This document shows positions 9,077-24,754 of a DNA stretch of 35,683 nucleotides, piece after piece; position 1 is the stretch's first letter; each line of letters opens with the position of its first letter. Made by a program: the position numbers and the translations under genes. Location: NCBI GenBank assembly GCA_024644465.1, contig JAHEKY010000014.1, forward strand, positions 1-35,683, given 5' to 3'. Source of the DNA: Ilumatobacteraceae bacterium. GTDB taxonomy: Bacteria > Actinomycetota > Acidimicrobiia > Acidimicrobiales > Ilumatobacteraceae. Below the pieces are notes generated by a model. The model was not told the origin of the DNA, searched no databases, and saw only the letters and a program-made list of their open reading frames with translations.

Positions 9077-10180
9077 TCACGACGGCCGGAGTGCCTGGTC
9101 GAGATCGGCCCAGAGATCCTCGACGTCTTCGCAGCCGACGCTGAGGCGGATCAGCGTCGGGGGGATCCGCTCCTGCCCGGCGATCACCGCCCGCCGCTCC
9201 ATCGTCGACTCGACGCCGCCGAGGCTCGTCGCGTGGTTGATCAATTCGGCTCGCGCGCACACCTCGGACGCCCGCTCGCCGGTACCGGTCGTCTCGAACG
9301 ACAGCATCGCCCCGAACCCGGTCATGAACGCGCGGGCGACGTCATGCGTGCCGTGGCTCGGCAGGCCCGGGTAGAGCACGCGGGCGATCCCGGGGTGGGC
9401 GTCGAGCCGCTGCGCCAGTTCGAGCGCGTTCTGCTGCGCCCGTTCGAGGCGAAGCGCGAGCGTGCGGGCGCCGCGGATCGTGAGAAACGCCTCCATCGCA
9501 CCGATCGTCGCGCCGTACAGCAGCCGCCGCCGGTGGAACTCGTCGTACAACTCGTCGTCGCGGGTGATCAGCACGCCGCCGAGCAGATCGGAGTGGCCAC
9601 CGATGAACTTCGTCGCCGAGTGCATCACGATGTCTGCGCCGTAGTCGAGCGGTTGCTGGTTCAGCGGCGTCGCGAACGTGCTGTCGACGGCGACGAGGGT
9701 GCCGTCGCGACGCGGCGCCCCGCAGATGGTCGGCAGGTCGGCGACGGTCATCATCGGGTTCTCGGGTGACTCGAGCCAGACGAGGTCGCACGTCCGGAGC
9801 GCGTCGAGCCACGCGGGCGTGTCGGCCTGGTCGAGCCGGTCGACCGTCCAGCGGCCGTGCGCCTCGCCCTCGTCGACGATGCCGGCGACGCCGTGGTACG
9901 GGTCGGTGGGCACGGCGATCCGGGAGCCGACCGGCAGTCGCCCGAACACGACGGCGACGGCAGCCATGCCCGAGGCGAACGCGAGGGCGCGGCCGTGTTC
10001 GAGCCCGCCGAGCAGTTCCTCGAGCGCATCGCTGGTCGGCGTGCCGTCGGTGCGGCTGTACAGCCGGTCGGCCGGGAGATAGAAGTTCGACGCGAACACC
10101 GGTGCCACGTTCAGTGGGTCTCCGGCGACGCGGCTGCGGCCCGCGGCGATCAACCACGTTGCTGGGGTCCAGTCGGGCAT
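9077..10180 (-). CDS. Cys/Met-metabolism PLP-dependent enzyme (cystathionine gamma-synthase/lyase-like)
   Basis: A 367-residue fold-type I PLP enzyme of the trans-sulfuration family. YSR (41-43) supplies the neighbouring-subunit phosphate contacts. ASGMAAV (69-75) and VDSTFATP with Asp166 bind the cofactor, and the Schiff-base Lys is Lys191 in SATKFIGGHSDLLGG. HATSLGGVESTMERR near the C-terminus is the substrate carboxylate-binding segment. Synthase, gamma-lyase and methionine gamma-lyase activities cannot be separated by eye. It is short for the family and starts late at the N-terminus. A second member of the superfamily (metY-like) lies at 28.2-29.5 kb. A TAGCGT box six bases upstream of the ATG suggests a leaderless mRNA. 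Confidence 0.88.
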   Translation of the reverse strand: MPDWTPATWLIAAGRSRVAGDPLNVAPVFASNFYLPADRLYSRTDGTPTSDALEELLGGLEHGRALAFASGMAAVAVVFGRLPVGSRIAVPTDPYHGVAGIVDEGEAHGRWTVDRLDQADTPAWLDALRTCDLVWLESPENPMMTVADLPTICGAPRRDGTLVAVDSTFATPLNQQPLDYGADIVMHSATKFIGGHSDLLGGVLITRDDELYDEFHRRRLLYGATIGAMEAFLTIRGARTLALRLERAQQNALELAQRLDAHPGIARVLYPGLPSHGTHDVARAFMTGFGAMLSFETTGTGERASEVCARAELINHATSLGGVESTMERRAVIAGQERIPPTLIRLSVGCEDVEDLWADLDQALRPS

Positions 10181-10192: not shown

Positions 10193-10268
10193 CTGGGCAG
10201 GGTCGCCGCGCCGTTCCGAGGTGTCGGTCCGTTCGCAGCCGCGACCGCGGATCGGCGATCATCATGTG

Positions 10269-11333
10269 GTGGGCAGGCATCGTGAGGCGGGGAGGCCGGG
10301 CAGATACCGGGTCGACGAGCGGATCGACCCGTCGGAGACCGAGTTCCTCCGGATCCACCTGGACGCCGCGGGCTGGACCCCCACGACGGGCGACGACTGG
10401 GATCTTTTCTGGTCGAACGCAATGCATGACCTCGCGGTGTTCGCCGGCCTCGACGACGGCCGTACGGTGAATCACTTCCCCGGCATCGCGCCCCTGCACT
10501 ACAAGGACGAGCTCGCGCACTTCGTCGCTCGCGCCGGCCACGCGTTCCATCCGCGCACGTTCTCGATGCCGTGGCAGTACGACGATCTCGTCGCCGAGAT
10601 GGCCGCCGCACCAGCAGCGCTGTGGCTGCGCAAGCAGAAGCGCTGGATGGCCGGCGAGGGGATGGCGATCCTCACCGACGACGTCCCGATACCGCTCGAC
10701 GAGCGATGGCTCGTGCAGCGCTACGTTGCCAACCCGCTCCTGCTGCCCGGCCACCCGTACAAGCACGTGCTCCGGCGCTACGTCGTGGTCACCTCGCTCG
10801 ACCCGCTGGTCGCCCATGTCCACGGGAACGGCCCGGTGAAGTTCACGTCGCGTCCGTTCAGCCTCACCCCCGAGGCGCTCCGCGACCCCGTCGTGCATCT
10901 GACCAACCCGCCGGTCCAACGTCGGAACACCGATGTCGACGATCCGGTCCGCGGCCTCGATCAGCACGACTACCGGTCGCGCCTCGCCGAGGTCGGCATC
11001 GACGCCGAGCACCTCTTCGGCCGGATCGACAGCATGCTCGCCGACACGCTCCGGGCCGTTCACGAACCGGTGCTCGCGCTCAGTCGCGAATGGTCGCCGC
11101 GGCTCGACCGCTGCTTCGAACTGCTCGGTTTCGACCTGATGGTCGACGACGCGCTCGACCCGTGGCTGCTCGAGTGCAACATCAGCCCGGCGCTCGGCGT
11201 GCGCGGCCGACCCGGATCACCGCATCATGACGCGCAACGGCGCGCCAAGGAGCCGATGGTGCGCGACATGCTGCGACTCGTCGGGCTGCTCGACGGCCCG
11301 CACGCGTTTCAGCCGCTCGTCACGGCCGGCTGA
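10269..11333 (+). CDS. Tubulin-tyrosine-ligase-like (TTL family) ATP-grasp protein
   Basis: About 354 residues with the hallmarks of the TTL/TTLL branch of ATP-grasp ligases, which form amide bonds between an amino acid and a protein or peptide carboxylate. VQRYVANPLLLPGHPYKHVL followed by RRYVVVTSLDPL and a VKFTSRPFS segment match the TTLL core. CFELLGFDLMVDDALDPWLL followed by ECNISP carries the Mg-ATP ligands Glu302 and Asn304. Bacteria lack the usual tubulin target, so the substrate here is unknown. It ends 42 bases from the convergent peptide gene at 11376-11678, so a role in modifying that peptide is possible but only a proximity argument. The start is uncertain: GTG 10221, 10266 and 10269 are in frame. 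I chose 10269 because a GATCAT box lies six bases before it. Confidence 0.78.
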   Translation: MGRHREAGRPGRYRVDERIDPSETEFLRIHLDAAGWTPTTGDDWDLFWSNAMHDLAVFAGLDDGRTVNHFPGIAPLHYKDELAHFVARAGHAFHPRTFSMPWQYDDLVAEMAAAPAALWLRKQKRWMAGEGMAILTDDVPIPLDERWLVQRYVANPLLLPGHPYKHVLRRYVVVTSLDPLVAHVHGNGPVKFTSRPFSLTPEALRDPVVHLTNPPVQRRNTDVDDPVRGLDQHDYRSRLAEVGIDAEHLFGRIDSMLADTLRAVHEPVLALSREWSPRLDRCFELLGFDLMVDDALDPWLLECNISPALGVRGRPGSPHHDAQRRAKEPMVRDMLRLVGLLDGPHAFQPLVTAG

Positions 11334-11375: not shown

Positions 11376-11678
11376 TCACGGCGGCGGGGGGCGGAAGTCG
11401 TCGCCACCGGGCAACGTGGAGCCGTAGCCGAGGTTCGGCCGGGTGACGAAGCCGAGACCACCGCCCAGCTTCAGGCTCGTCCCCGACAGGTCGGCACCCG
11501 ACTGCATGCCGCTGTAGCTGAGTGAGGTCGCGTCGAACCCGAAGCCCTCCACCTCCGGCTCGTACGACGCCGCCCGTTCGAGGATGCCGTCGAGCACCTG
11601 TCGCTCCGCATCGTCGAGGTCGAGCGCGTCGAGCTTCGCCCCGAGGCCGTTCAGCACGTCTGCGTTGATTTCGGTCAT
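11376..11678 (-). CDS. Putative peptide precursor P1 (100 aa), paralogue of P2
   Basis: A 100-residue protein with two halves. Residues 1-48 are a helical, acidic, leader-like segment (LGAKLDALDLDDAERQVLDG, then EPEVEGFGF). Residues 49-100 are low-complexity, rich in Gly, Ser, Thr and Leu, with a Pro tail (SLKLGGGLGF, LGYGSTLPGGDD, RPPPP). The first half is clearly related to the protein at 16289-16567, whereas the second halves are unrelated. That is the pattern of leader plus core in ribosomal peptide precursors. No signal peptide and no Cys. The start is fixed by GGAGG (11686-11690, minus strand) seven bases before ATG 11678; an ATG six bases upstream is too close to the SD. It is divergent from the ABC exporter operon and shares its short promoter region. 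The function is a hypothesis. Confidence 0.7.
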   Translation of the reverse strand: MTEINADVLNGLGAKLDALDLDDAERQVLDGILERAASYEPEVEGFGFDATSLSYSGMQSGADLSGTSLKLGGGLGFVTRPNLGYGSTLPGGDDFRPPPP

Positions 11679-11749
11679 CGGCATCCTCCGTCGTCGTCGA
11701 TGGTCGTTGTCCGCCATGGTGCCTCTTCGGCCCACACCGGCCCGAGATC

Positions 11750-11755
11750 TAGTAT
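11750..11755. promoter_or_regulatory. AT-rich divergent promoter core between P1 and the ABC exporter gene
   Basis: CTAGTATTG is the only AT-rich pocket in the intergenic region. TAGTAT (11750-11755) can serve as the plus-strand -10 of the exporter operon, with a weak TTCGGC 18 bases upstream. Its complement ATACTA can serve as the minus-strand -10 for P1. A shared core would co-express peptide and exporter. Confidence 0.4.
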
Positions 11756-11775
11756 TGCAGGATGGCGGGACGGGG

Positions 11776-11829
11776 GTCGACGGCACCAGGGTCGACGGCA
11801 CCCTGGTCGACGGCACCCTGGTCGACGGC
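11776..11829 (+). repeat. 15-bp tandem repeat, 3.6 copies
   Basis: Units begin at 11776, 11791, 11806 and 11821 (GTCGACGGCACCCTG, first unit ending CCAGG). In the exporter frame they would read VDGTR-VDGTL-VDGTL-VDG. With the preferred GTG start at 11848 they lie in the 5' leader; with an upstream start they would form an N-terminal repeat. Copy number may vary between strains. Confidence 0.85.
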
Positions 11830-11847
11830 GAAGAGTCGGGTCGTCCG

Positions 11848-14718
11848 GTGACGACGGACTTCGAGACGATCGAGAAGGGCGGCATCCGTGTGCGATACCG
11901 GCCGGGCACCGCCGGCGAACGGGCGGCCCGGCCGATGGCGTCGGCTGCTGCGAAGGCCCGGCGGCTGCTCGCCGGGCTCGGCTCGGAGCCCGACATCGAC
12001 GTGCCGTGCATCTACCTCGACGACGCGTTCAACGACCCGGGCGACCCGGACACGGTCGTCACGGAGGGCAGTGTCGTCGACGCGCAGTCCGGTGAGGTGT
12101 GGATGGTCGTCGGCCCGGAGGCTCCGCCGGAACCGCCTCATCGCCCGCTGGCCCTGCTGTTCGGGGCGGGTCTCCCGTGCCTCGACGAGGTCGAGCTGCT
12201 CGTCGAGGGGTACGGGCTGCACCTCGCCGACATCGGTCCGACCCGTTCGCAGCTCCCGCCGGTGCTGCCCCCGCTCGACGCTGCCGGTGGCGAGCTGCGC
12301 GCTGCGATGGCGGTCGACTTCGTGCGCTTTCTGCTCGACCGGGAGAACGAGAACGCCCTGAGAGCGTTGCTCGCGGCGCCGCACGGCGCCCTCGACACGC
12401 GGTTCCGGGAGCTGTACGGCGCGCCTGCCGCCGCGCTGGAACAGGCATGGCGCAACGAGGTGCTGGCCGGCGAGCCCGATGTGAAGCCGATGGAGTTCCT
12501 GCGGCTCTCGGCGCGCTATCTGCGCCCGTACTGGGCGCGCCAGCTCGAGGTGTTCGGCTACATGCTGCTCAGCCTCGCCTTCACCGCAGCGTTCCCGTAC
12601 GTGTCGAGGTCCCTGTTCGACACGGCGATCCCGAGCGGCGACTTCGGGGAGGTGCTCCAGTTGCTCGTCGTGCTCGGTGTCGCGTTCGTCGTGTCGCTCC
12701 TCGCCGGCCTCCGCCAGGCGTACCAGAGCGCGTGGGTCAGTGGCGCGGTCGTCCGCGACATCCGCCAGACGATGTTCGACAAGCTGCAGGTGCTGCCCTC
12801 GTCGTGGTTCCACCGGTATCAGCAGGGCGACGTGCTCGCCCGGCTGTTCTCCGACGTCGGTGCCGTGCAGTCCGGTCTGTCCGACACGATCGGCCGGGGG
12901 ATCTTCCAGCTGCTCACGCTCGTCGTGACCGCGGTGATCATGCTGACGATCAACGTGCCGATGGGTCTCGTCGTGCTCGCCGGCGCGCCGCTCGTCGGGC
13001 TCGTGTACAAGACGATGGCGAAGGGCGCCCAGGAGCGCAGCATCGATCTGCGCGAGGACAACAGCGCACTGCTCAGCGTCGCCGCGGAGAACTACACCGC
13101 GATCCCGGTCGTGAAGATGTTCGGCCTCGGCGGCCGTGAGAGTCTCCGGTTCGGGCGGGCATCCGATCGGCTCTTCCGGTCGCAACGCCGGCTCAGCCTG
13201 TTCGGCGGGTTGTTCGGCCTGTCGGTCAACATGATCACGACGATGCTGCGCCTGGGCGTGCTCGGCTTCGGAGCCTGGCTGATCCTCGAGGGGCGGTTCA
13301 CCGTCGGCGGGCTCGTCGCGTTCCTCGCGATCATGGGCGAGGTGATCAACCCGGTCACCGTTCTGACCACCATCGGTCAGGACATCCAGGCCGCGACCGG
13401 CGCCCTCGTGAGGATCAACGAGGTGCTCGATGCCGAACCGGAGCCGCGCGCCGCAGACGCCGTGGAGCTGCCGCGACTCACGACCGAGCTGCGGTTGTCC
13501 GACGTGTCGTTCTCGTACTCGCCGGAACGGCGCGCGCTCGACGGCGTCGATGCGGTGATCCCCGCCGGCAGCAACGTCGCGTTCGTCGGCCCGTCCGGTT
13601 CCGGCAAGTCGACCGTGCTGCGGATGATCATGAGGATGTACGAGCCGGAGGAGGGCACGATCTCGCTCGACGGGATCGATGTCGGCACGGCCACCGTCGA
13701 GTCCCTGCGGGGCCAGATCGGGGTGGTCTTCCAGGACCCGTTCCTGTTCAACACGACGATCCGTGAGAACATCGAACTGGGCAAGCCGGGCGCCACCGAC
13801 GACGAGGTGCTCGCCGCGGGTGCCGCCGCCGAGATCGACACGTTCATCGGCTCGCTCCCGAACGGGTACGACACGCTCGTCGGCGAGCGCGGCACCAACC
13901 TGTCGGGCGGCCAGCGTCAGCGCGTGTCGATCGCGCGGGCGTTGATCCGCGACCCCCGAATCCTGCTGCTCGACGAGGCCACCTCGGCGCTCGACCCCGG
14001 CACCGAACGCCAGATCACCGCGACGCTGCGCCGCGTCGGCGCCGACCGCACCGTCATCGCGATCACCCACCGGCTGACCTCGATCACCGACTACGACTCG
14101 ATCTTCGTGATCGACGCCGGCCGTCTCGTCGAATACGGACGACACGACGAACTGGTCGCGCTCGGCGGGACCTATGCCCACCTCTGGGCGGAGCAGACCG
14201 GGACCGAGCGCCGTGAACTCGCGCCGTTCGACAGCGCCGCCGCGCTCGCGTCGACGCCGCTCTTCCGGGACACCGACGACGAGACGCGCCGCGACGTGGC
14301 GGCGCGCCTGCGGGCCTTCGTCCTGCAGCCCGGTGAGACGATCGGCGACGAGTCGGGCGGCCTCGTGATCGTTCGGGAGGGTCGCGGTGCGGTGCTCGCA
14401 CCATCGGATCTCGGTGGCACCGCCGTCACGACCGAACTCCGTTCCGGCGACGTGTTCGGTGTCAAGGCGTTGATCGGCGGGAGCACCGGAACTCGTTTGC
14501 GCGCGATCGACTCGCTCGTCCTGCTCGAACTCGACAACGCAGTGCTCGACGGCATCGCCGCCCGGTTGCCGTCGGTTGCGGCTGCGCTCGCCGGCTCACG
14601 TTCATCGGGGCCGACCCACGGCCGCCGCCTCGCGAGCGCCGCGTTTGCGGCAGCAGCGCCCGGCCCGGCCGGGGCGACGGCACGCAACTCGAACGCATCC
14701 ACAGGGAGCACCGCATGA
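11848..14718 (+). CDS. ABC exporter (TMD-NBD) with novel N-terminal domain and C-terminal cNMP-binding-like domain
   Basis: About 956 residues. Residues 1-210 are an unusual soluble domain (GIRVRYRPG, CIYLDDAF, LLVEGYGLHLADIG, VDFVRFLLDRENENALRALL). Its layout recalls peptidase-MA-like gluzincins, but HExxH is absent. Residues 217-510 form the six-helix ABC exporter membrane domain. The NBD follows, with Walker A GPSGSGKST (581-589), signature LSGGQ (685-689) and Walker B ILLLDEAT (705-712). Residues about 798-920 resemble a cyclic-nucleotide-binding fold (STPLFRDTDDETRRDVAARL, VLQPGETIGDESGG, SGDVFGVKALIGG). ABC proteins carrying cNMP-like domains are known in NHLP/NHLM bacteriocin export systems. 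There is no C39 peptidase domain. The gene is coupled by ATGA to the next one. The start is uncertain: GTG 11848 is preferred, while ATG 11716 precedes the likely promoter. Confidence 0.88.
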   Translation: MTTDFETIEKGGIRVRYRPGTAGERAARPMASAAAKARRLLAGLGSEPDIDVPCIYLDDAFNDPGDPDTVVTEGSVVDAQSGEVWMVVGPEAPPEPPHRPLALLFGAGLPCLDEVELLVEGYGLHLADIGPTRSQLPPVLPPLDAAGGELRAAMAVDFVRFLLDRENENALRALLAAPHGALDTRFRELYGAPAAALEQAWRNEVLAGEPDVKPMEFLRLSARYLRPYWARQLEVFGYMLLSLAFTAAFPYVSRSLFDTAIPSGDFGEVLQLLVVLGVAFVVSLLAGLRQAYQSAWVSGAVVRDIRQTMFDKLQVLPSSWFHRYQQGDVLARLFSDVGAVQSGLSDTIGRGIFQLLTLVVTAVIMLTINVPMGLVVLAGAPLVGLVYKTMAKGAQERSIDLREDNSALLSVAAENYTAIPVVKMFGLGGRESLRFGRASDRLFRSQRRLSLFGGLFGLSVNMITTMLRLGVLGFGAWLILEGRFTVGGLVAFLAIMGEVINPVTVLTTIGQDIQAATGALVRINEVLDAEPEPRAADAVELPRLTTELRLSDVSFSYSPERRALDGVDAVIPAGSNVAFVGPSGSGKSTVLRMIMRMYEPEEGTISLDGIDVGTATVESLRGQIGVVFQDPFLFNTTIRENIELGKPGATDDEVLAAGAAAEIDTFIGSLPNGYDTLVGERGTNLSGGQRQRVSIARALIRDPRILLLDEATSALDPGTERQITATLRRVGADRTVIAITHRLTSITDYDSIFVIDAGRLVEYGRHDELVALGGTYAHLWAEQTGTERRELAPFDSAAALASTPLFRDTDDETRRDVAARLRAFVLQPGETIGDESGGLVIVREGRGAVLAPSDLGGTAVTTELRSGDVFGVKALIGGSTGTRLRAIDSLVLLELDNAVLDGIAARLPSVAAALAGSRSSGPTHGRRLASAAFAAAAPGPAGATARNSNASTGSTA

Positions 14719-15269
14719 CCTCCGTCGCCCGCCCCGTGCTCGACGCGATCGTCGCCGCGGCCGTCGACGTGACCGCCGCGTCGGTCGGCTGGCTGCTGAT
14801 GATCGACGACGAGGACCTCGTCGTCGTTGCGGCAGCCGGCGGCTCCGACCCGCAGGCGCGCCTCGGCGAGCGCGTCGCAGTCAGCGGCGTGGCCGGGCTG
14901 GTGATCTCCTCGGAACAGGCCGCGGCGATCGACACACCGCCGTCGGACACGTCCAACGTCGGCGCCGGTGGACTCGACGGCAACCCTGCAGGCGTTCTGG
15001 CAGCACCGTGCGGCGACGACGATGTGCTCGGCGTGCTCGAGTTGGCACGGCCGCAGGGGAGCGGGCCGTTCACGGTCGACGACATCGAGGAGGCGACGCT
15101 GCTCGCCCGGGTCGCCGGTGCGGCCCTCGCCGAACTCGACGACGCGCTGGCGACCGTGCCGTCACCGGGCGAGCTCGCCGCCGGCCTCGAACGGTTGGCT
15201 GTCGCCGCGCCGGCCCGCTACGCCGTCGTGGCCCGTCTGCTCGCCTCGTTGTTCGAGGCCGACCGATGA
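14715..15269 (+). CDS. GAF-domain-like protein of the exporter operon
   Basis: A 184-residue protein. Residues 1-145 look like a GAF sensor fold: AAVDVTAASVGWLLMIDDED, GERVAVSGVAGLVISSEQAA, VLGVLELARPQG, FTVDDIEEATLLARVAGAAL. The C-terminal 40 residues are helical and Ala-rich. No output domain (kinase, cyclase, HTH) is attached, so it probably acts as a small ligand-binding or partner protein. Its ATG overlaps the exporter stop and its stop overlaps the protease start, both as ATGA, so it is made in step with the two and likely belongs to the same complex. It could modulate transport together with the cNMP-like domain of the exporter; this is inference. Confidence 0.75.
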   Translation: MTSVARPVLDAIVAAAVDVTAASVGWLLMIDDEDLVVVAAAGGSDPQARLGERVAVSGVAGLVISSEQAAAIDTPPSDTSNVGAGGLDGNPAGVLAAPCGDDDVLGVLELARPQGSGPFTVDDIEEATLLARVAGAALAELDDALATVPSPGELAAGLERLAVAAPARYAVVARLLASLFEADR

Positions 15270-16129
15270 GTGACCCACCACGCCCGGCATGGACACAGGC
15301 CGGTGAGGGCCTCGACGTCGGCGACGCGCCCCGCCTCGACGAGTTGACGCCCGAGTGGGCCTGGGGCGGTGCCGACGGCGCCGGCGTTCGCATCGCGGTG
15401 ATCGACAGTGGGATCGACGCGGCCCACCCCCGGCTCGACGACTGCGTCGACCGTGACGCCGCCGTGTCGTTCGCTGTTCGCAACGGTGAGGTCGTGCGGA
15501 GCGATGGGCCACACGACGACTCGTTCGGTCACGGCACGGCATGCGCGGGCATCGTCCACTCGATCGCCCCGGCCGCTCGCGTCACGAGCATCAAGGTGCT
15601 CGGCAACGGTCTGCAGGGCAAGGCTGCTGCATTCCACGCCGGGCTGACACATGCGATCGATGCGGGTTTCGACGTGGTCAACCTGTCGCTCGGCACCCGC
15701 AAGCGTGACTGGGCGCTCGCGTTCCACGATGTGTGTGACCGGGCGTACTTCGGGAACTCGTTCATCGTCACCGCAGCGAACAACGTGCAGCGGCGCAGTT
15801 TCCCCTCCCTGTACGCGTCCGTTGCCAGCGTGGCGTGCAACCTCGACGACGACCCACTGCGATTCCACGTCAACCCCGAGCCCCCGACCGAATTCCTCGC
15901 CCGCGGGATCGACGTCGAGGTGGCCTGGCTGGACGGCCAGACGATTCGGACCACCGGCAACTCGTACGCCGCCCCGCACATCGCCGGCATCGCAGCGCTG
16001 ATCCGCTCGAAGCATCCGGGCCTCCGCCCGTTCCAGCTGAAGACCGTGCTGTGGGCGACCGCGGCGAACGTGCGCGAACGGTCGTCGGTGCCGGTCGCCG
16101 GGAAGCTGACCCGGGCGATGAACCGGTAG
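15266..16129 (+). CDS. Cytosolic subtilisin-like (S8) serine protease of the exporter operon
   Basis: A 287-residue S8 peptidase with an intact catalytic triad: Asp47 in AVIDSGID, His89 in FGHGTACAGI and Ser233 in TGNSYAAPHIAG. The oxyanion Asn is 172 or 173 in TAANN. It has neither signal peptide nor propeptide, unlike secreted subtilisins, so it should act inside the cell. The wording FGHGTACAGIVHSIAPAA, VTSIKVLGNGLQGKAAAF, VVNLSLGTRKRDW and SFPSLYASV resembles the protease domains associated with cyanobactin-type peptide processing more than degradative subtilisins. Coupled by ATGA to the GAF gene and followed by the small peptide genes. A role in cleaving the leader of P1/P2 before export is the most economical guess. 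Confidence 0.9.
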   Translation: MSDPPRPAWTQAGEGLDVGDAPRLDELTPEWAWGGADGAGVRIAVIDSGIDAAHPRLDDCVDRDAAVSFAVRNGEVVRSDGPHDDSFGHGTACAGIVHSIAPAARVTSIKVLGNGLQGKAAAFHAGLTHAIDAGFDVVNLSLGTRKRDWALAFHDVCDRAYFGNSFIVTAANNVQRRSFPSLYASVASVACNLDDDPLRFHVNPEPPTEFLARGIDVEVAWLDGQTIRTTGNSYAAPHIAGIAALIRSKHPGLRPFQLKTVLWATAANVRERSSVPVAGKLTRAMNR

Positions 16130-16152
16130 CGGGCGGCCGGGCTGCCAGGGGG

Positions 16153-16173
16153 TCGTGGCACGTTGTGCCACGA
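16153..16173 (+). terminator. Hairpin between protease gene and peptide genes
   Basis: Arms TCGTGGCAC (16153-16161) and GTGCCACGA (16165-16173) pair perfectly with a GTT loop, 23 bases after the protease stop and 42 before the next start. It may be a partial terminator, mRNA-end stabiliser or processing site that sets different expression of the downstream peptides. Confidence 0.6.
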
Positions 16174-16214
16174 TGGGTTCGACCCGTTGCCGGCCGCACG
16201 AGAGGGAGCATCCG

Positions 16215-16292
16215 ATGAGCGACACGATCACCCCCAAGATGGTGGCCACGCCGAGGGCACAGCTCGCCGAGTCGGCGGGCGTGCGGTCATGA
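16215..16292 (+). CDS. 25-residue peptide translationally coupled to P2
   Basis: A 25-codon ORF, MSDTITPKMVATPRAQLAES then AGVRS. AGAGGGAG (16201-16208) lies six bases before its ATG, and its TGA overlaps the ATG of P2 (ATGA at 16289-16292). The good ribosome binding site and exact coupling argue that it is translated. It could be a regulatory leader peptide for P2, an independent small peptide product, or merely a device for translational entry to P2. No signal sequence, no Cys and no resemblance to P1/P2 that I can see. Confidence 0.5.
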   Translation: MSDTITPKMVATPRAQLAESAGVRS

Positions 16293-16567
16293 GCGGCGAC
16301 GCGCTCGGCTCGCTCGGCGGCAAGCTGCGGTCGCTCGACCTCGACCCGCCGGAGGCGAGGGCGCTGGCAATGATCCTGTTGCGGGCCCGCGACGCGGAGC
16401 CCGAGGTCGAGGGGTTCGCGTTCGACGTCGGCTCGCTCGGGTTCGACATCGGCGCCACCAGTCGTCAGAGTCTCACCGACGGCGACGGCACCCTCCGTGG
16501 CGACCGCGGGTTCAAGGGGACCGACGAGGAACTCCAGGCGATCGTCGACGACCTGACCCGTCGCTGA
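16289..16567 (+). CDS. Putative peptide precursor P2 (92 aa), paralogue of P1
   Basis: A 92-residue protein whose N-terminal half (LGSLGGKLRSLDLDPPEARA, then EPEVEGFAFDVGSLGF) aligns with P1. The shared frame is LGxKLxxLDLD followed about 17 residues later by EPEVEGFxFDxxSL. The C-terminal half (GATSRQSLTDGDGTLRGDRG then FKGTDEELQAIVDDLTRR) differs completely from P1, ending in a charged helix rather than a Pro tail. No Cys and no signal peptide. The ATG overlaps the preceding 25-codon ORF, which supplies the ribosome entry site. It is the last gene of the exporter-GAF-protease operon. Whether it is a substrate, a chaperone-like carrier or an immunity factor cannot be decided here. Confidence 0.72.
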   Translation: MSGDALGSLGGKLRSLDLDPPEARALAMILLRARDAEPEVEGFAFDVGSLGFDIGATSRQSLTDGDGTLRGDRGFKGTDEELQAIVDDLTRR

Positions 16568-17617: not shown

Positions 17618-18778
17618 TCAGTCGGTTGCGAGTGGCCCGATCGTGCGCCGGACGAGGGGAACGCCCGGGCGGTACGCGAGGTGGTGGTGGGTCGGCGCGT
17701 CGAGGACGACCGCGTGGCCCGCCGACCCGGGGCTGAGCCGGCCCACGTCGTCGCGGCGGAGTGCGGCCGCGCCGCCGATCGTGACCGCCTGCACCGCCTC
17801 GTCGATCGTCATGTGCATTTCGCGTACGGCGAGCGCGATGCAGAACGACAACGACGTCGTGTAACTCGACCCGGGATTGCAGTTCGACGCGATCGCGACC
17901 GTGGCTCCCGCGTCGATGACCCGGCGCGCGTCCGGGTACGGCTGCCGCGTCGAGAAGTCGGTGGCCGGGAGGAACGTCGCGACCGTGTCGCTCCCGGCGA
18001 GCGCGGCGATGTCGTCGTCGGTGAGGTACGTGCAGTGGTCGACCGACGCGCAGCCGCACTCCACGGCGAGCTGCACGCCCGGGCCGTGGCCCAGTTGGTT
18101 GCCGTGCAGCCGCAGCCCGAGCCCCGCGTCACGGCCCGCGTGCAGCACCGCGCGGCACTGGTCGGCGTCGAACGCACCGGTCTCGCAGAACGCGTCGATC
18201 CAGCGGGCGTGCGGCGCGGCGCCGCGCAGCATCTCACCGCACACCAGGTCGATGTAGTCGTCTGGGCGGCCCTCGAACTCCGCCGGGAGGAGGTGCGCGC
18301 CGAGGAACGTCGACTCGGTCGTGTACGTCTCGGCGATCGTGAGCGAGCGGACCTCGTCGTCGACGTTCAACCCGTATCCGGACTTGATCTCGATCGTCGT
18401 CGTTCCGGCTCGGTGCGCCTCGGCGAGACGCAGACCGACGAGCGCGTGCAGGTCGTCGGTCGACGCGGCACGCGTGGCGTCCGTCGTCGTGCGGATGCCA
18501 CCGCCGTCGTAGGCGTCGCCGGCCATCCGGGCGACGAACTCTGCGGAGCGGTCCCCTGCGAACACCAGATGGGTGTGGGAGTCGACGAACCCGGGCAGCA
18601 CACACGCGCCGTCGGCGTCGACGCGCCGGTCGCCGATCGCGCCCGCCGGCCCGACCCACTCGACGATGTCGTCGGTGATGACGATCGACGCGTCCTCGAC
18701 GATCCCGAGCGGACCGCGTCCGAGCGCTTCGTCGTTCGTGACGAGCGACCCGATGTTGTCGACCACCAACGATGCCAT
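17618..18778 (-). CDS. hutI: Imidazolonepropionase
   Basis: A 386-residue amidohydrolase that hydrolyses imidazolone-5-propionate to N-formimino-L-glutamate, the third step of histidine breakdown. The metal motif HTH is at residues 68-70 in [27 protein letters not shown] and LHGNQLG are characteristic HutI segments, and ASNCNPGSS carries the late substrate-binding region. Length is slightly short of the usual ~400. It follows hutF by four bases on the minus strand, in the order hutU, deformylase homologue, hutF, hutI. Cytosolic. Confidence 0.97.
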
Positions 18779-18782
18779 CGCG

Positions 18783-20129
18783 TCAGCGTTCCATGATCTG
18801 CGCGATCGTGGCGCGCAATTCGTTTGGGGCGTCGATCCGGAGGTGCCGCCCGTCCTCCACGACCGGCACCCCGTCGACGACGACGTGGGTGACGTCGGCG
18901 GCGGTCGCGGCGAACACGACCGCAGGGAGTTCGGCCCCGGCCGCAGCTCCCGCCGTCCGGACGGAGTCGAGCGTGACGGTGACGAGGTCGGCGCGTCGGC
19001 CGACGGCGATCGTGCCGGCGTCGTCCCACCCGAGAGACTCGTGACCGTCGACCGTCATCATCGCCAGCAGGGCCGACGTCGCGTGCCGGCCGCGGCGTTC
19101 GGCGCGCAGCCGATCATGGAGCTCGACCGCTCGGGCCTCTTCGAACATGTCGACGACGGCGTGCGAGTCGGTCCCGAGCGTCAGCGCGACCCCCGCCCCG
19201 ACGAGCTCGGTGCTCGGGCCGATGCCGTCACCGAGGTCGCGTTCGGTCGTCGGACAGAAGCACACGCCCGCGTCCGCGGCGGCGAGGCGGGTGATGTCGC
19301 CGCTGCCGAGATGGGTGCCGTGGACCGCGGTGAACCGCGTGTCGAGCACGCCCGCGCTGGCGAGCAAACCGGTCGGCGTGCGGCCGTGGTGGGCGATGCA
19401 CTGCTCGTTCTCCACCCGCTGCTCGGACACATGGGCGTGCACGGGGGCACCGCTCGCCGTCGCCCAGTTGCGCACGGTCTCCATCGAGACGGGATCGACG
19501 GCACGCACCGAATGGATCGCAGCGCCGATCAGCGCGTGCGGCCCGGGTCGCAGCTCGTCGACGCGCGCCGCCCACACGTCTGCAGAGCCGTCGGTGAACC
19601 GGCGCTGCACCCCGTCGATCGTCGCGTAGCCGTCGGGGCCGAGCCCGCCGTGCAGGTACAGGGTGTCGAGCAGCGTGATCCGGATGCCGGCGTCCGCGGC
19701 CGCCTCCAGCAACGCGGCACCGAACTCGTTCGCATCGACGTACGGGCGGCCGTCGGGCTGATGGTGGAGATAGTGGAACTCGCCGACGGTCGTGATGCCG
19801 GCCATCGCCATCTCCGCGAAGACCGCTCGGGCGAGGCGGTGATACGTGTCGGGTTCGAGCCGGGACGCGACGGTGTACATCACGTCGCGCCAAGTCCAGA
19901 ACGAGCCGTCACCCGCCTGGGTGTGGGATCGCAACGCGCGGTGGAACGCGTGGCTGTGGGCGTTGGCGAAACCCGGCAGGGTCAGGCCGTGCAGGACGGT
20001 CGCGCCGGCCGGCGCCGGGATGCCGACCCCGATGTCGCTGAACCGGCCGTCGGCGATCGCGACGGCCACGCCGTCGACGGCGGCGCCGTCGACCAGCGCC
20101 TGCTCGCACCAATAGCTGGCGGTGCTCAT
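18783..20129 (-). CDS. hutF: Formimidoylglutamate deiminase
   Basis: A 448-residue amidohydrolase that converts N-formimino-L-glutamate to N-formyl-L-glutamate and ammonia. The metal motif HSH is at residues 58-60 in [15 protein letters not shown], a typical HutF signature. HAHVSEQ, VHGTHL and TLGTDSHA hold the remaining metal and catalytic residues. Its presence commits the pathway to the two-step route, which needs an N-formylglutamate deformylase (usually HutG). No hutG is in the window. The gene sits 21 bases downstream of a peptide-deformylase homologue and 4 bases upstream of hutI, clearly one operon. Confidence 0.95.
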
Positions 20130-20150
20130 CGGCGGCCGCTCACGGTGTCG

Positions 20151-20723
20151 TCACGACCCGACCCGTTCGACGAACGCGGTGATCCGCTCGATGAACGCGT
20201 CGCGATGGTGCTGTTCGAACTCCTCCCACGTCGACAGCGTCGTGCGGTCCTCGACGCGGTCGATGAACAGCACGCCGTCGAGATGATCGCATTCGTGTTG
20301 CCAGGTGCCGGCGGTCAGCCCGCGCATCGTCTCGTCGTGCGGTGTGCCGTCGCGGTCGCGGTAGCGGACCCGGATGTTGACGTGCCGCAGCACGTTGCCG
20401 CGCAGCGGGACCGACAGGCAGCCCTCGTTCACCTCGACGAGTTCGTCGTCGAGGACGTCGATCACCGGGTTGATCGCCACGGTCAGCGGGATCCGTGGCT
20501 TGTAGGGGTAGCGCGGGTTGTCGTCGACTTCCATCACGGCGATCCGCAATCGCTCGCCGATCTGGGTCGCTGCGAGACCGGCGCCGTTCGCGGCCCGCAT
20601 CGTGTCGATCAGGTCGTCGATCACGCCCTGCACCCGATCGCTCGCGATGTCTGCGGGCGCGACGTCCGACGCCCGCACCCGAAGTTCCGGGTCGCCGATC
20701 GTGAGGATCGGCCGCACGCTCAC
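20151..20723 (-). CDS. def: Peptide deformylase homologue within the hut operon
   Basis: A 190-residue polypeptide deformylase-family metalloenzyme. All three motifs are present: GAGLAATQ (47-54; usual form GVGLAAPQ), EGCLSVP (100-106, metal ligand Cys102) and WQHECDHLDG with ligands His143 and His147 and catalytic Glu144. A helical tail of about 30 residues (TWEEFEQHHRDAF, FIERITAFVERVG) follows. Family members remove N-formyl from nascent proteins. In this setting, between hutU and hutF with no hutG, it may instead or also deformylate N-formylglutamate. The start is set at GTG 20723, giving the typical SVRPILTIGDPELR opening. A GTG at 20738 overlaps the palindrome and is less likely. A dedicated housekeeping def elsewhere in the genome would strengthen the specialised role. 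Confidence 0.9.
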   Translation of the reverse strand: MSVRPILTIGDPELRVRASDVAPADIASDRVQGVIDDLIDTMRAANGAGLAATQIGERLRIAVMEVDDNPRYPYKPRIPLTVAINPVIDVLDDELVEVNEGCLSVPLRGNVLRHVNIRVRYRDRDGTPHDETMRGLTAGTWQHECDHLDGVLFIDRVEDRTTLSTWEEFEQHHRDAFIERITAFVERVGS

Positions 20724-20737
20724 GCCGCCACCGGACA

Positions 20738-20768
20738 CGTCAAAGTTGTGTCAGACACAACTTTGACG
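20738..20768. terminator. AT-rich palindrome after hutU (copy 1)
   Basis: Arms CGTCAAAGTTGTGTC (20738-20752) and its complement GACACAACTTTGACG (20754-20768) around a single A. It lies 22 bases beyond the hutU stop and just before the deformylase start. The core matches the palindrome after hutH at 24757-24789. As RNA it forms a long hairpin with a small loop; a terminator or attenuator inside the operon, or a dispersed repeat, are the options. Confidence 0.8.
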
Positions 20769-20790
20769 GGCGCGCTGTCGAGTTCGGGCA

Positions 20791-22476
20791 TCACGCACCA
20801 TCTTCGCGGGCCGGCATCGGGACGCGGACGCCGCGCTCGGAGGCGACGTCCCTGGCGTGCTCGTACCCGGCGTCGACGTGGCGGATCACGCCGGTCGCCG
20901 GATCGTTCGTCAGCACCCGCTCCAGCTTCTGCGCGGCCAGCGCCGTGCCGTCGGCGACGCTCACCTGGCCGGCGTGGATCGAGCGGCCGATGCCGACGCC
21001 GCCGCCGTGATGCACGCTGACCCACGTCGCGCCGGAGCAGGTGTTGACGAGGCCGTTGAGCAGCGGCCAGTCGGCGATCGCATCGGATCCGTCGAGCATC
21101 GCCTCGGTCTCGCGATACGGCGACGCGACCGAGCCCGAGTCGAGATGATCGCGCCCGATCACGACCGGGGCGCTCAGCTCCCCGCTGCGAACCATCTCGT
21201 TGAAGCGCAGGCCGAGCCGATGCCGTTCGCCGTAGCCGAGCCAGCAGATCCGGGCGGGCAGGCCCTGGAACGCGACGCGTTCGCCGGCGAGGCGGATCCA
21301 CCGCGCGAGCGACTCGTTCTCCGGGAACTCCTCCAGCACGGCCCGGTCGGTTGCGGCGATGTCGGCAGGATCGCCCGACAGTGCCACCCACCGGAACGGC
21401 CCGACGCCCTCGCAGAACAGCGGCCGGATGTACGCCGGGAGGAACCCCGGGTAGTCGAAGGCGCGGTCGAACCCGCCGAGCTGCGCTTCCGCACGGAGGC
21501 TGTTGCCGTAGTCGAACACCTCGGCGCCGGCGTCCATGAACCCGACCATCGCCTGGCAGTGCGTGGCCATCGCAGCCTGCGCCCGCCGGGTGAACTCACC
21601 GGGGTCGGTCCGTCGCAGCTCGTCGGCCGCCTCCGGCGAGAGGTCGTTCGGCAGATAGCTGAGCGGATCGTGCGCGCTCGTCTGATCGGTGACGATGTCC
21701 GCCTCCACGCCGTCGGCCAGCAACCGCGGGATCACGTCGGCGGCGTTGCCGAGCAGCCCGACCGACAGGGGGGTGCGGCTCGCCTTCGCCTCGCGCACCC
21801 GGCTCACCGCGCTCGCGTAGTCCGGCGCGATCTCGTCGAGGTACCGGTGGTCGACGCGGCGCTGCAGCATGTCCGGGTTGACGTCGACGATCAGCACGAC
21901 GCCGTCGTTCATCGTGACGGCCAGCGGTTGCGCCCCGCCCATCCCGCCGGCGCCGGCGGTGATCGTGAGCGTGCCGGCGAGCGACCCACCGAAGCGTTTG
22001 CGGGCGATCGCCGCGAAGCACTCGTAGGTGCCCTGGAGGATGCCCTGCGTCCCGATGTAGATCCACGACCCGGCCGTCATCTGCCCGTACATCGTCAGCC
22101 CGGCATTCTCGAGGCGGCGGAACTCGTCCCAGTTCGCCCAGTCCGGGACGAGGTTCGAGTTGGCGATCAGCACCCGCGGCGCCCACTCGTGGGTGCGCAA
22201 CACGCCGACCGGCTTGCCGGACTGGACGAGCATCGTCTCGTCCTCGCGCAGCGTCGTCAGCGTGTCGAGCATCGCCCGGTACGCGCCCCACGACCGCGCG
22301 GCGCGGCCCGTTCCGCCGTACACGACGAGCGCGTCGGGGTTCTCGGCGACCTCGGGATCGAGGTTGTTCTGGAGCATGCGGAACGCCGCCTCCTGTTGCC
22401 ACCCGAGACAGGACAGTTCGGTGCCGCGAGGTGCGCTGATGTTGCGCACGGGAGTGCCGATGTCGAAGCTGCTCAT
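20791..22476 (-). CDS. hutU: Urocanate hydratase
   Basis: A 561-residue urocanase, which converts urocanate to imidazolone-5-propionate using tightly bound NAD+ as an electrophile. The N-terminus has the family wording [31 protein letters not shown] and [19 protein letters not shown]. The NAD-binding glycine loop is GAGGMGG (175-181) and the conserved active-site Cys is Cys355 in [16 protein letters not shown]-type segments and [20 protein letters not shown] complete the domain. Length is normal. It is the first gene of the minus-strand hut operon, divergent from the IclR regulator with 71 bases between starts. No clear Shine-Dalgarno; a CACACT box lies seven bases upstream of the ATG. Confidence 0.98.
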
Positions 22477-22507
22477 GGCTTGCAGTGTGCGCGGAATGTT
22501 CCTACGA

Positions 22508-22543
22508 TGTCAACCGACGACAACTCTTGTCATGGAGTGACAA
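22508..22543. promoter_or_regulatory. Two TGTC-N7-GACA inverted repeats, candidate IclR-type operators
   Basis: Site 1 is TGTC (22508-22511), seven bases, GACA (22519-22522). Site 2 is TGTC (22528-22531), seven bases, GACA (22539-22542), and extends to the perfect TTGTCA-N5-TGACAA. The sites are 20 bases apart start to start, about two helical turns. They lie in the hutU/regulator divergent region, and site 2 covers the regulator's GGAG ribosome binding site. This is suitable for autoregulation and urocanate-responsive control. Confidence 0.6.
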
Positions 22544-22547
22544 ATCG

Positions 22548-23228
22548 ATGGATGCGAACGCAAGTGGCGAACAGGTGCCCCGAGCCGTCGGCCGGGTCCT
22601 CGACCTGCTCGAGATCGTGCTCGCTGCAGGGTCCTGCAACCTGTCGGCGGCGGCCGCGGCCGCCGATCTGACACCGACGACGGCGCTGCGCCATCTCCGT
22701 GCGCTCGAGGCCCGCGGGTACGTCCGCCGCGACGGCGACGGCAACTTCTCCGCGGGGTCGACGATCGTGCGGATCGCAGCCGCACTGAACGACGCGGGCC
22801 CGCTGGCGCGGCTCGCAGCGATCGCGCAGCCCTACCTCGACGAGCTCGCCGCGACGACCGGAGAGTCGACGTACCTCGCGGTGAGCGACGGGGTGCAGGC
22901 GACCTACGTCGCGGCGGCCGTCAGCACGCACGCGATCCGCCACGTCGGTTGGGTCGGCCAGAACGTGCCCCTCGGCGGAACCGCGGTCGGCGAGGCGCTC
23001 GGCGACCCGACGCGGGCGGCGGTCCGCACCGGAGCGGTCGAGCCCGACATCACGGCGGTCTCCCAGGCGTTGCCGACCGACGGCGGGCCGGGCGTTGCGA
23101 TCTCGGTGATCGGGCCGGTGCACCGGCTCGGCGCCGAGCGGCGGCGGGCGGTCGTCGGGGCGTTGGGCGCCGTGGTCGAGCGCCTCTCCGCCGACCTCGG
23201 GCTCGGGACGATGGAGGTGTCGGCATGA
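22548..23228 (+). CDS. IclR-family transcriptional regulator of the hut genes
   Basis: A 226-residue IclR-type regulator. Residues about 12-70 form the winged HTH (VGRVLDLLEIVLAAGSCNLS, AAADLTPTTALRHLRALEAR, GYVRRDGDGNFSAG). The rest is the effector-binding domain (YLDELAATTGESTYLAVSDG, PLGGTAVGEALGD, GVAISVIGP). The start at ATG 22548 has GGAG ten bases upstream; the frame is open upstream but lacks a better site. Its stop overlaps the hutH start as ATGA (23225-23228). It is divergent from hutU. The likely effector is urocanate or another pathway intermediate, by analogy with other hut regulators, but IclR proteins may repress or activate. Confidence 0.88.
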   Translation: MDANASGEQVPRAVGRVLDLLEIVLAAGSCNLSAAAAAADLTPTTALRHLRALEARGYVRRDGDGNFSAGSTIVRIAAALNDAGPLARLAAIAQPYLDELAATTGESTYLAVSDGVQATYVAAAVSTHAIRHVGWVGQNVPLGGTAVGEALGDPTRAAVRTGAVEPDITAVSQALPTDGGPGVAISVIGPVHRLGAERRRAVVGALGAVVERLSADLGLGTMEVSA

Positions 23229-24754
23229 CGGTCCACCTGGACGGGCCCGGCGTCACGGTCGGCGATGTCGTCGCCGTCGCCCGCGACGGGGCGGTGGTCG
23301 AGCTGACCGACGCCGCCGTCGATCGGATGCGGCGGGCGAGGGCGGTCGTCGAGGAACTCGCGGAGGGCGAACCGAAGTACGGCATCTCGACCGGGTTCGG
23401 TGCGCTGGCCACCGTGTCGATCCCGCCGGAACGCCGCCAGGCACTCCAGCACTCCCTGATCCGTTCCCACGCCGCCGGGATGGGGGACCCGGTCGAGGAC
23501 GAGGTCGTGCGCGCGATGATGCTGCTGCGCGTCCGCACGCTGGCGCTGGGCGCGAGCGGCGCCCGTCCACTCGTCGCCGACGCGATCGTCGCGATGCTCA
23601 ACGCGCAGATCACACCGGTCGTGTACGAGTACGGCTCGCTCGGCGCCAGCGGCGACCTCGCCCCCCTCGCGCACTGCGCGCTCGCGCTGATCGGTGAAGG
23701 CGACGTACACCACGCCGGCGAGCGCGCGCCGGCTGCCGAGGCGCTCCGCGCCGCCGGGCTCGCGCCGATCGAGCTCGCCGAGAAGGAGGGGCTCTCGCTG
23801 ACGAACGGCACCGACGGGATCCTCGGCATGCTCTGTCTCGCGATCCACGACGCCGGGCAGATCGTCGACGAGGCGGACATGATCGCCGCGATGACCGTCG
23901 AGGGGCTGCTCGCGACCGACCGCGCGTTCGCGTCCGACCTGCAGGACCTCCGGCCGCATCCCGGCCAGGCGGCGTCCGCGGCGAACCTACGCACGATGCT
24001 CGCCGGGTCGCCGATCGTCGCCAGCCACGCGACCGACGACCCACGCGTGCAGGACGCGTACTCGATCCGGTGCACGCCGTCGGTCCACGGTGCGGTGCGC
24101 GACACGCTCGAACACGTGCGCCGCGTCGTCGGTCACGAACTCGCGGCGGCGATCGACAACCCGATGGTGCTGCCGGACGGCCGCGTCGAGTCGTGCGGCA
24201 ACTTCCACGGCGCGCCGGTCGGCCTCGCCGCCGACTTCCTCGCCATCGCAGTGGCGGAGATCGGCTCGATCGCAGAGCGGAGGATGGACCGGATGCTCGA
24301 CCGGACCCGATCGCACGGGCTGCCGCCATTTCTCGCAGACGAGGCCGGCGTCGACAGCGGGCTGATGATCGGGCACTACACCGCGGCGTCGATGGTCGCC
24401 GACAACAAGCGCCTCGCGGTGCCGGCATCGGTCGACTCGTACCCGACGTCGGGGATGCAGGAGGACCACGTGTCGATGGCGTGGAACGCGGCCCGCAAGC
24501 TGCGAACGGTGATCGCCAACGTCCGCCGCGTGCTCGCCGTCGAGTACGTGATCGCGGCGCGGGCGATCGATCTGCGGGCCCCGCTCCAGCCGGCGGAGGC
24601 GACCGGAGCACTCGTGGAATTGCTGCGCGCGGTCGTCGACGGGCCCGGGCCCGATCGGTTCCTGGCGCCGGAACTGCACCGCGCGGAGCGGCTCCTCGTC
24701 GAGGGTCGCCTCCACGCCCAGCTCGCCCGCCACGACATCCACCTCGCGCCGTAG
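23225..24754 (+). CDS. hutH: Histidine ammonia-lyase
   Basis: A 509-residue lyase that removes ammonia from L-histidine to give urocanate, the first step of the pathway. The Ala-Ser-Gly triad that cyclises to the MIO cofactor is residues 141-143 in YGSLGASGDLAPLAH. Other family segments are YGISTGFGAL, GVNGDGILG-like TNGTDGILGML, QDAYSIRC and EDHVSMAWNAARKLR. Normal length. The start is coupled to the regulator stop by ATGA. The gene ends three bases before a 33-base perfect palindrome. Confidence 0.98.
   Translation: MTVHLDGPGVTVGDVVAVARDGAVVELTDAAVDRMRRARAVVEELAEGEPKYGISTGFGALATVSIPPERRQALQHSLIRSHAAGMGDPVEDEVVRAMMLLRVRTLALGASGARPLVADAIVAMLNAQITPVVYEYGSLGASGDLAPLAHCALALIGEGDVHHAGERAPAAEALRAAGLAPIELAEKEGLSLTNGTDGILGMLCLAIHDAGQIVDEADMIAAMTVEGLLATDRAFASDLQDLRPHPGQAASAANLRTMLAGSPIVASHATDDPRVQDAYSIRCTPSVHGAVRDTLEHVRRVVGHELAAAIDNPMVLPDGRVESCGNFHGAPVGLAADFLAIAVAEIGSIAERRMDRMLDRTRSHGLPPFLADEAGVDSGLMIGHYTAASMVADNKRLAVPASVDSYPTSGMQEDHVSMAWNAARKLRTVIANVRRVLAVEYVIAARAIDLRAPLQPAEATGALVELLRAVVDGPGPDRFLAPELHRAERLLVEGRLHAQLARHDIHLAP

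Follow-up and report, generated by a model that had tools for sequence, protein, structure and literature searches.

A candidate peptide maturation and export cassette with a tubulin-tyrosine-ligase-like gene in an Ilumatobacteraceae genome

The window analysed here is the whole 35,683-nucleotide stretch of contig JAHEKY010000014.1 of an Ilumatobacteraceae bacterium (assembly GCA_024644465.1; 3.37 Mb, 82.86% complete). It harbors, in this order, genes for a tubulin-tyrosine-ligase (TTL)-like protein, a candidate precursor peptide (P1), an ABC exporter, a GAF-domain protein, a subtilisin-like S8 protease and a second candidate precursor peptide (P2). The comparisons presented here suggest that this cassette is real, rare and modular. 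It is best read as a system for a ribosomally synthesized and post-translationally modified peptide (RiPP), with the TTL-family ligase as the likely modifying enzyme. The probability that the six genes constitute a RiPP-type maturation and export pathway is estimated at about two in three.

From the gene anatomy, homology, co-occurrence and selection read in the sequence, we infer the steps of modification, cleavage and export, and the function of the product, as follows. P1 and P2 would be precursors in which an N-terminal leader, probably helical, ends in EPEVEGF. If its chemistry follows that of the related TTLL enzymes, the TTL-like ligase would extend a carboxylate of the peptide by at least one amino acid. 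The cytosolic S8 protease would cleave at EVEG or directly behind it, a site suggested by the constancy of this motif across relatives. The ABC exporter would then pump the released peptide out of the cell, and its N-terminal domain, which resembles a peptidase without an active site, may hold the substrate. The GAF protein and the cyclic-nucleotide (cNMP)-like domain of the exporter are probable regulators or adaptors.

Anatomy of the cassette and its peptides

The genes for the exporter (11848 to 14718, plus strand; longest open reading frame (ORF) from 11584), the GAF protein (14715 to 15269, plus strand, 184 amino acids) and the S8 protease (15266 to 16129, plus strand, 287 amino acids) overlap one another in an exact ATGA at 14715–14718 and at 15266–15269, as the sequence-only reading had described. 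It had also claimed that small paralogous proteins flank the three genes, and they do. P1 (11376 to 11678, minus strand, 100 amino acids, with its start behind GGAGG) is divergent from the exporter, and P2 (16289 to 16567, plus strand, 92 amino acids) lies downstream of the protease. A third ATGA, at 16289–16292, couples a mini-ORF of 25 amino acids (16215 to 16292, plus strand) to P2. The TTL-like gene (10221 to 11333, plus strand, 370 amino acids) is convergent with P1 and outside the ATGA operon; its true start may lie slightly further in than 10221.

A search with P1 finds P2 at E = 7e-10 with 46% identity, and nothing beyond P2 at E<=1 in the assembly. The leader ends in YEPEVEGF in P1, followed by the tail FDATSLSYSGMQSGADLSGTS..., and in AEPEVEGF in P2. 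Identity between the two is 55% in the leader part and 38% in the alignable tail, which bears out, for the paralogues, the earlier description of a shared leader and a variable remainder. The description fits orthologues of P2 less well; between sister species P2 is moderately conserved over its full length. The ratio of nonsynonymous to synonymous substitution rates (dN/dS) of P2 against the sister-species copy is 0.34 (0.25 in the leader, 0.43 in the tail), compared with 0.10 for the S8 protease. P2 is under constraint. An orthologue of P1, truncated, is present in the Acidimicrobiia genome G447 (locus L069), and YSGxxSGADLSxT is common to both. The mini-ORF begins like a peptide gene that is full length in the sister species (L013, 879–1247), and is probably a remnant for that reason. 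The window thus retains only the start of a gene that is intact in its relative, and peptide copy number seems to change fast. As a regular expression, EVEG alone is too short for genome-scale counts, and profiles were used in its place.

The exporter contains the Pfam domains ABC_membrane and ABC_tran. A GTG start at 11848 (956 amino acids) is inferred to be more likely than ATG at 11584 or 11716; the G447 orthologue has 954 amino acids. No cassette protein matched the Pfam models for the C39 peptidase or the S8 pro-peptide at E<=1, in agreement with the earlier claim that the exporter lacks C39. Its description as an ABC-cNMP fusion holds for the ABC domains. In the window protein the C-terminal cNMP-binding domain (PF00027) reaches 23.6 bits, under the cut-off of 27.5, which exporters of two other S8 loci pass (an ABC protein at L078 with 87.5 bits and an MFS protein at L082 with 63.1). 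The N-terminal domain gave weak matches to PF13485 (peptidase MA) in seven of twelve related exporters, with a best E of 0.0048 and none in the window member, and all twelve lack the HExxH motif. It is perhaps, at most, a degenerate relative of peptidase MA. A sequence search of solved structures with this domain returned nothing at E<=1. In HlyB-type exporters the peptidase domain is inactive and holds the substrate without cleaving it. By this precedent the N-terminal domain would have a docking role, with the S8 protease cutting in trans.

The GAF protein matches GAF_2 at 45.5 bits (cut-off 28.6). The protease belongs to the subtilase family on both its Peptidase_S8 score (PF00082; 100 bits, cut-off 21.8) and its Asp-His-Ser triad, D47, H89 and S233, which is invariant in an 11-row alignment. 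It lacks any pro-peptide match or evident signal sequence, as had been claimed, and is called cytosolic. A 15-bp repeat in 3.7 tandem copies (11774 to 11829, no strand) lies in the stretch that separates the P1 start from the divergent start of the exporter, and may be a promoter element. Rfam gave no match across 9–18 kb of the window.

The TTL-like ligase as candidate modifying enzyme

The TTL-like protein is a member of the tubulin-tyrosine-ligase family, which has an ATP-grasp fold; it scores 138.8 bits with PF03133 against a cut-off of 20.1, and its homologue in G447 scores 173.5 bits. By sequence, its nearest PDB chain is 6vzq (E = 7e-31), from the tubulin polyglutamylase TTLL6, and the alignment retains PWLLExN, HLTN and the LR-Y-VTS region. 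TTLL6 is thus the closest solved homologue; the window protein, unlike the eukaryotic TTLL polyglutamylases, is bacterial and is encoded beside a peptide gene. Because the match spans residues 57–328 only, the extensions that bind tubulin are probably absent.

G447 was the only genome among 394 other Acidimicrobiia in which a homologue was detected (E<=1e-10, 50% identity). It belongs to a different family, and no other genome of that sample apart from the window's own was seen with a P1-type peptide. No other genome in a 326-genome phylum sample had a homologue of the ligase, and none was found in the plasmid collection. For each genome, the searches scored no more than the best first-look candidates, and absences throughout mean "not found". 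G447 was already known as a genome with the cassette and the P1-type peptide, and its cassette exporter is 69% identical to that of the window. Since the sole other genome with the ligase is also the sole other genome seen with a P1-type peptide, the TTL-like protein is the best candidate for the modifying enzyme, a role that the sequence-only reading had already proposed for it and that this co-occurrence supports. The cassette contig of G447 ends inside P1 and its TTL contig continues for only 48 bases past the TTL stop and includes a minus-strand reading frame whose end lies a few bases beyond that stop. This fits the layout of the window, and we infer that the ligase and P1 genes are adjacent in G447 as well.

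Several observations weigh against this assignment. The ligase and P1 of G447 are on separate, non-overlapping contigs, and the association with the cassette comes from one independent genome. Neither the ligase nor the cassette exporter was found in the sister species (G076), probably because its contig ends at the S8 gene, which leaves this genome uninformative on the ligase. The co-occurrence is therefore suggestive rather than conclusive. A chance value of 1.3e-5 was not used, because the window had been picked for having both genes; a fair figure is about 1 in 394.

It is also conceivable that P1 and P2 are unmodified secreted signals or bacteriocins, trimmed by the S8 protease and exported by the ABC protein, and that the ligase and the sulfotransferase beside P2 are unrelated neighbours. 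The position of the ligase gene, convergent with P1 and not in the operon, would agree with this, as would the peptides of a related locus (L020), which have no obvious modifier among the genes examined. A further point in its favour is that no classical RiPP synthetase was matched, as the earlier reading had stated: a scan of 27 of the larger proteins of the window hit no radical SAM, YcaO or lanthipeptide enzyme, and no C39. Against this explanation, the single occurrence of the ligase among 394 other genomes is in a different family and again with a P1-type cassette, and relatives of the cassette accompany radical-SAM genes. Peptides that go unmodified are, on balance, fairly unlikely.

Peptides, leader motif and spread at related loci

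A total of 55 S8 loci were studied: 36 from a scan of contigs for S8, 18 further loci and the window. The order ABC-GAF-S8 occurs in twelve (the window, L014, L015, L016, L017, L018, L019, L020, L022, L066, L069 and L070), and eight of the twelve have a linked leader-type small ORF. L066 has, beside the cassette, a small ORF that passes NF045560 (47.2 bits, cut-off 30) with a leader ending TDDVGGFGL, and two radical-SAM genes. For the second of these, YydG-type peptide epimerases are the nearest match (51.6 bits, against a cut-off of 300). Downstream of the cassette of L017 are three ORFs with PEVEAF, AEVEAF or PEVETF followed by Cys-rich tails, adjoining a radical-SAM/SPASM protein that scores 291 bits with TIGR04463 (cut-off 525); these ORFs were chosen by eye, and the leader profile reaches only one, at E = 0.04. 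In L020, EVPEVESFGF occurs in a tandem pair of peptides upstream of the cassette, accompanied by a third relative with a weaker match (E = 0.004). The proposal that the S8 protease cleaves leaders in trans for an exporter without C39 gains comparative support from L066 and L017, with cleavage and export themselves predicted from sequence.

The motif extends to the S8 loci of Streptomyces and its kin (L024–L048). NF045560-like peptides were detected in 18 of these 25 loci with a home-made profile at E<=0.01, and two of the peptides of this group scored 67.1 and 81.5 with the NCBIfam model (cut-off 30). Most leaders there end in [D/E]V[E/Q]G[Q/H], mostly as ...VEGQ. A representative locus, L034, has as neighbours a radical SAM, a flavoprotein, an ATP-grasp protein and a nucleotide cyclase-AAA protein. 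The leader profile of the P family, to which P1 and P2 belong, and the Streptomyces-type leader profile align over 26 columns that end at VEG (hhalign 93.7%, E = 2e-7). The constancy of [D/E]-x-E-[G/S/A]-[F/Q/H] across relatives is the ground on which it is read as the probable S8 protease site; L066 (VGGF) and several others deviate from it by one residue. Peptides with 3–8 repeated DTEGQ/DTEGH-like motifs occur at three of 54 S8 loci (L077:11322-11768; L082:13309-13536; L085:2-676 and 741-1094) and resemble multi-core precursors with repeated cleavage sites. At L082 the nearby exporter is of the MFS type and carries a cNMP-binding domain as a fusion.

Some precursors may be processed by a protease encoded elsewhere in the genome. 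Over 296 Acidimicrobiia genomes, the P-family profile matched the window's own genome (G000), G206 and G305. The latter two are cassette genomes, and the profile was built without their sequences. The G206 match is a linked protein of L017 of the conserved type described below. The P-type peptides of G305 are unlinked to its cassette, which suggests processing in trans. One G305 locus (L100) has a SEVEGFGS peptide, a second small ORF and then a radical-SAM/SPASM protein, for which DarW/DarE are the nearest models (325 and 272 bits, with cut-offs of 650). Another (L099) has a DDEVSGYSF leader-type peptide beside a JmjC/cupin protein and a sulfotransferase (L099:6305-8110, 9106-9921). A chance value of 2e-6 for the peptide hits was not used, because one of the three genomes is the window's own.

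Other results count against a precursor role or limit its reach. P1 and P2 had no match to curated precursor families, and none to NF045560 at E<=1 (domain cut-off 30). No NF045560-like peptide was found in seven of the 25 Streptomyces-group loci (L042 short). G447, whose truncated peptide is in the P-family profile, is not among the 296-genome matches, having been either undrawn or missed. At four of the twelve ABC loci (L015, L016, L018 and L022) no leader-type ORF could be recognised in the flanks examined, and three more (L014, L019 and L070) have only a fully conserved protein, here called type B; some ABC-locus contigs without P1/P2-type peptides end near the cassette. The sequence-only reading had itself named exporter operons without P1/P2-type ORFs, or peptides conserved along their full length and mostly found without exporter or protease, as observations that would speak against it. 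This was encountered in part; the expected co-occurrence of exporter and peptide holds for eight of the twelve loci when type B is counted.

Type B proteins raise the question of whether P1, P2 and their like are small helical regulators of the protease or the exporter (inhibitors, adaptors or leader mimics), with some other substrate passing through the cassette. Type B is about 75 amino acids long, with a leader-like part and a conserved tail (LP..L....VRI.GL), and is conserved over its full length in six S8 loci (L070:11541-11810; L014:5706-5975; L019:5675-5914; L071 within 2870-3178; L066 within 1121-1711; L017 within 10402-11193). Its genes often adjoin an ECF sigma gene. Both of these features would suit regulators, as does the constraint on both halves of P2. 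The tails of the paralogues differ, however, and the leader-type ORFs of L017, L066 and L100 have RiPP-like tails and radical-SAM partners, which makes a regulatory role improbable.

The cassette is rare and scattered. The S8 profile at E<=1e-50 matches seven of 395 Acidimicrobiia genomes (six strongly); in the phylum sample of 396 genomes it matches 11, the window's own genome included. Hosts of the ABC-GAF-S8 order include Acidimicrobiia, Solirubrobacterales and Nitriliruptoraceae metagenome-assembled genomes. In the S8 tree, the window, the sister species (L013 in G076) and L069 (G447) form one supported clade (98/96). This is nested in an 18-row group (100/99) that holds all twelve ABC loci together with L013, L021, L071 and L072–L074; the Streptomyces and Streptosporangiaceae proteins are a neighbouring group, and L078, with the order GAF-S8-ABC, falls outside the 18 rows. 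Outside the twelve ABC loci are L021 (contig starts near GAF), L071 (GAF-S8 without ABC), L013 (contig ends at S8) and L078 (ABC after S8), although L021 and L071 carry the label of the ABC group in the tree. L067, L068 and L089 were excluded from the counts as the same contigs as L017, L022 and L013, respectively. Short pieces were left uncounted (L001–L012 and L049–L065), the S8 genomes G014 (L006), G017 (L009) and G652 (L065) among these. Also to be set against a peptide pathway, the S8 gene of L072–L074, accompanied at two of these loci by a detected GAF gene, sits among housekeeping genes with no ABC gene or recognised peptide. These contexts, and the four ABC loci without recognisable peptides, would suit a general stress or quality-control protease and efflux system with peptides nearby by coincidence, a very remote prospect given that the P-family profile matches only three of 296 genomes, all with S8 (one the window's own), and that NF045560-like peptides accompany 18 of 25 relatives. 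As a separate observation, PknB-like Ser/Thr kinase genes, recognised by eye, are near ABC-GAF-S8 in L016, L017, L020, L022 and L066.

A wider form of the RiPP proposal is that a TTLL relative defines a new RiPP class by adding amino acids (e.g. Glu) to a peptide with an EVEGF leader, which the S8-GAF pair frees and an ABC protein with a pseudo-peptidase and a cNMP-like domain exports. The S8-GAF-exporter set would then be an interchangeable module that serves TTL, radical-SAM and other chemistries through one leader and cleavage motif, sometimes in trans. This wider form is tentative, with the odds somewhat against it. The S8-GAF pair together with the leader end [D/E]xEG[F/Q/H] provides a sequence handle that unites peptide clusters across Actinomycetota. 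The TTL-family ligase may be a new kind of peptide-modifying enzyme and, if so, a bacterial system for TTLL chemistry; the ligase step, if shown, would establish a new RiPP class. The prediction is directly testable with one protease, one ligase and two short substrates.

Relation to known systems and neighbouring genes

Among the closest known systems are the "aroma-sacti"/StsA-related clusters (NF045560, NF045559) of Streptomyces and Streptosporangiaceae. Their S8 proteases are related to that of the window (43–51% identity), the GAF gene adjoins S8 where detected, and [D/E]V[E/Q]G closes the leader in most. L066 links the two groups, as an ABC-cassette locus that holds an NF045560 precursor. 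They differ in that P1 and P2 miss NF045560 and have no radical SAM beside them, and in that an exporter of the window's ABC type was not found at the aroma-sacti loci. Among the literature matches listed, none describes the cassette, "aroma-sacti" or a TTL-type RiPP. The earlier label "undescribed" has to be qualified for the wider S8-GAF group, because the peptides of some of its loci already have an NCBI model, as "aroma-sacti".

Two S8 proteases offer experimental precedents, by analogy, for leader cleavage. QhpE, a subtilisin-like protease of the cytosol, is described as cutting off a leader of 28 residues ahead of ABC export by QhpF (PMC7876137), and CcaF as an S8 leader protease of the dehydrazole pathway (PMC10676384). 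The predicted order of events in the window, cytosolic removal of a leader by a subtilisin-like protease followed by ABC export, resembles that described for QhpE and QhpF (PMC7876137). The window protease differs in scoring 100.2 bits with the QhpE model (NF049966, cut-off 165), and no radical SAM was found in the window proteins scanned. A role in biogenesis of the cysteine tryptophylquinone (CTQ) cofactor of quinohemoprotein amine dehydrogenase was rejected, as both Cys and Trp are absent from P1 and P2 and the QhpE model is missed.

Other assignments were rejected on their model scores. The protease reaches 107.6 bits with the mycosin model of type VII secretion systems (TIGR03921, cut-off 278.75) and 25.5 bits with that of the cyanobactin PatA/PatG proteases (TIGR03895, cut-off 421.05). 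NHLP/NHLM exporters are likewise ABC exporters of leader-type peptides, and some of these bacteriocin exporters carry a cNMP-like domain. The window exporter reaches only 348.6 bits with TIGR03796 (cut-off 853.3) and 320.5 bits with TIGR03797 (cut-off 709.4), and lacks the C39 domain that belongs to the TIGR03796 type. Graspetides of the MvdC/MvdD type have in common with the window an ATP-grasp-fold ligase beside a leader peptide gene. The TTL-like protein had no NCBIfam match to the MvdC, MvdD or SAV_5884 models (TIGR04184/04185/04187), and C39 is again lacking. The words tubulin, GAF and subtilisin are absent from the main text of a graspetide survey (PMC8939145).

A sulfotransferase family protein adjoins P2 (16601 to 17542, minus strand; PF13469, 58.8 bits) and is possible as a second modifier. 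Its gene also adjoins P2 in the sister species, with 65% identity. In a search of 20 genomes it was present in G000 and G076, in none of seven other genomes of the genus, and as a weak, unlinked match in G425. The unrelated neighbour hutI is likewise confined to G000 and G076 among eight genus genomes (plus G010 of the family). Because hutI has the same distribution, shared ancestry explains the position of the sulfotransferase beside P2; its association with the cassette is inseparable from lineage, and it was rejected as an established part. Directly downstream of the cassette, at 17618–24754, are histidine-utilisation genes (hutI/hutF-like amidohydrolases, urocanase and an aromatic amino acid lyase).

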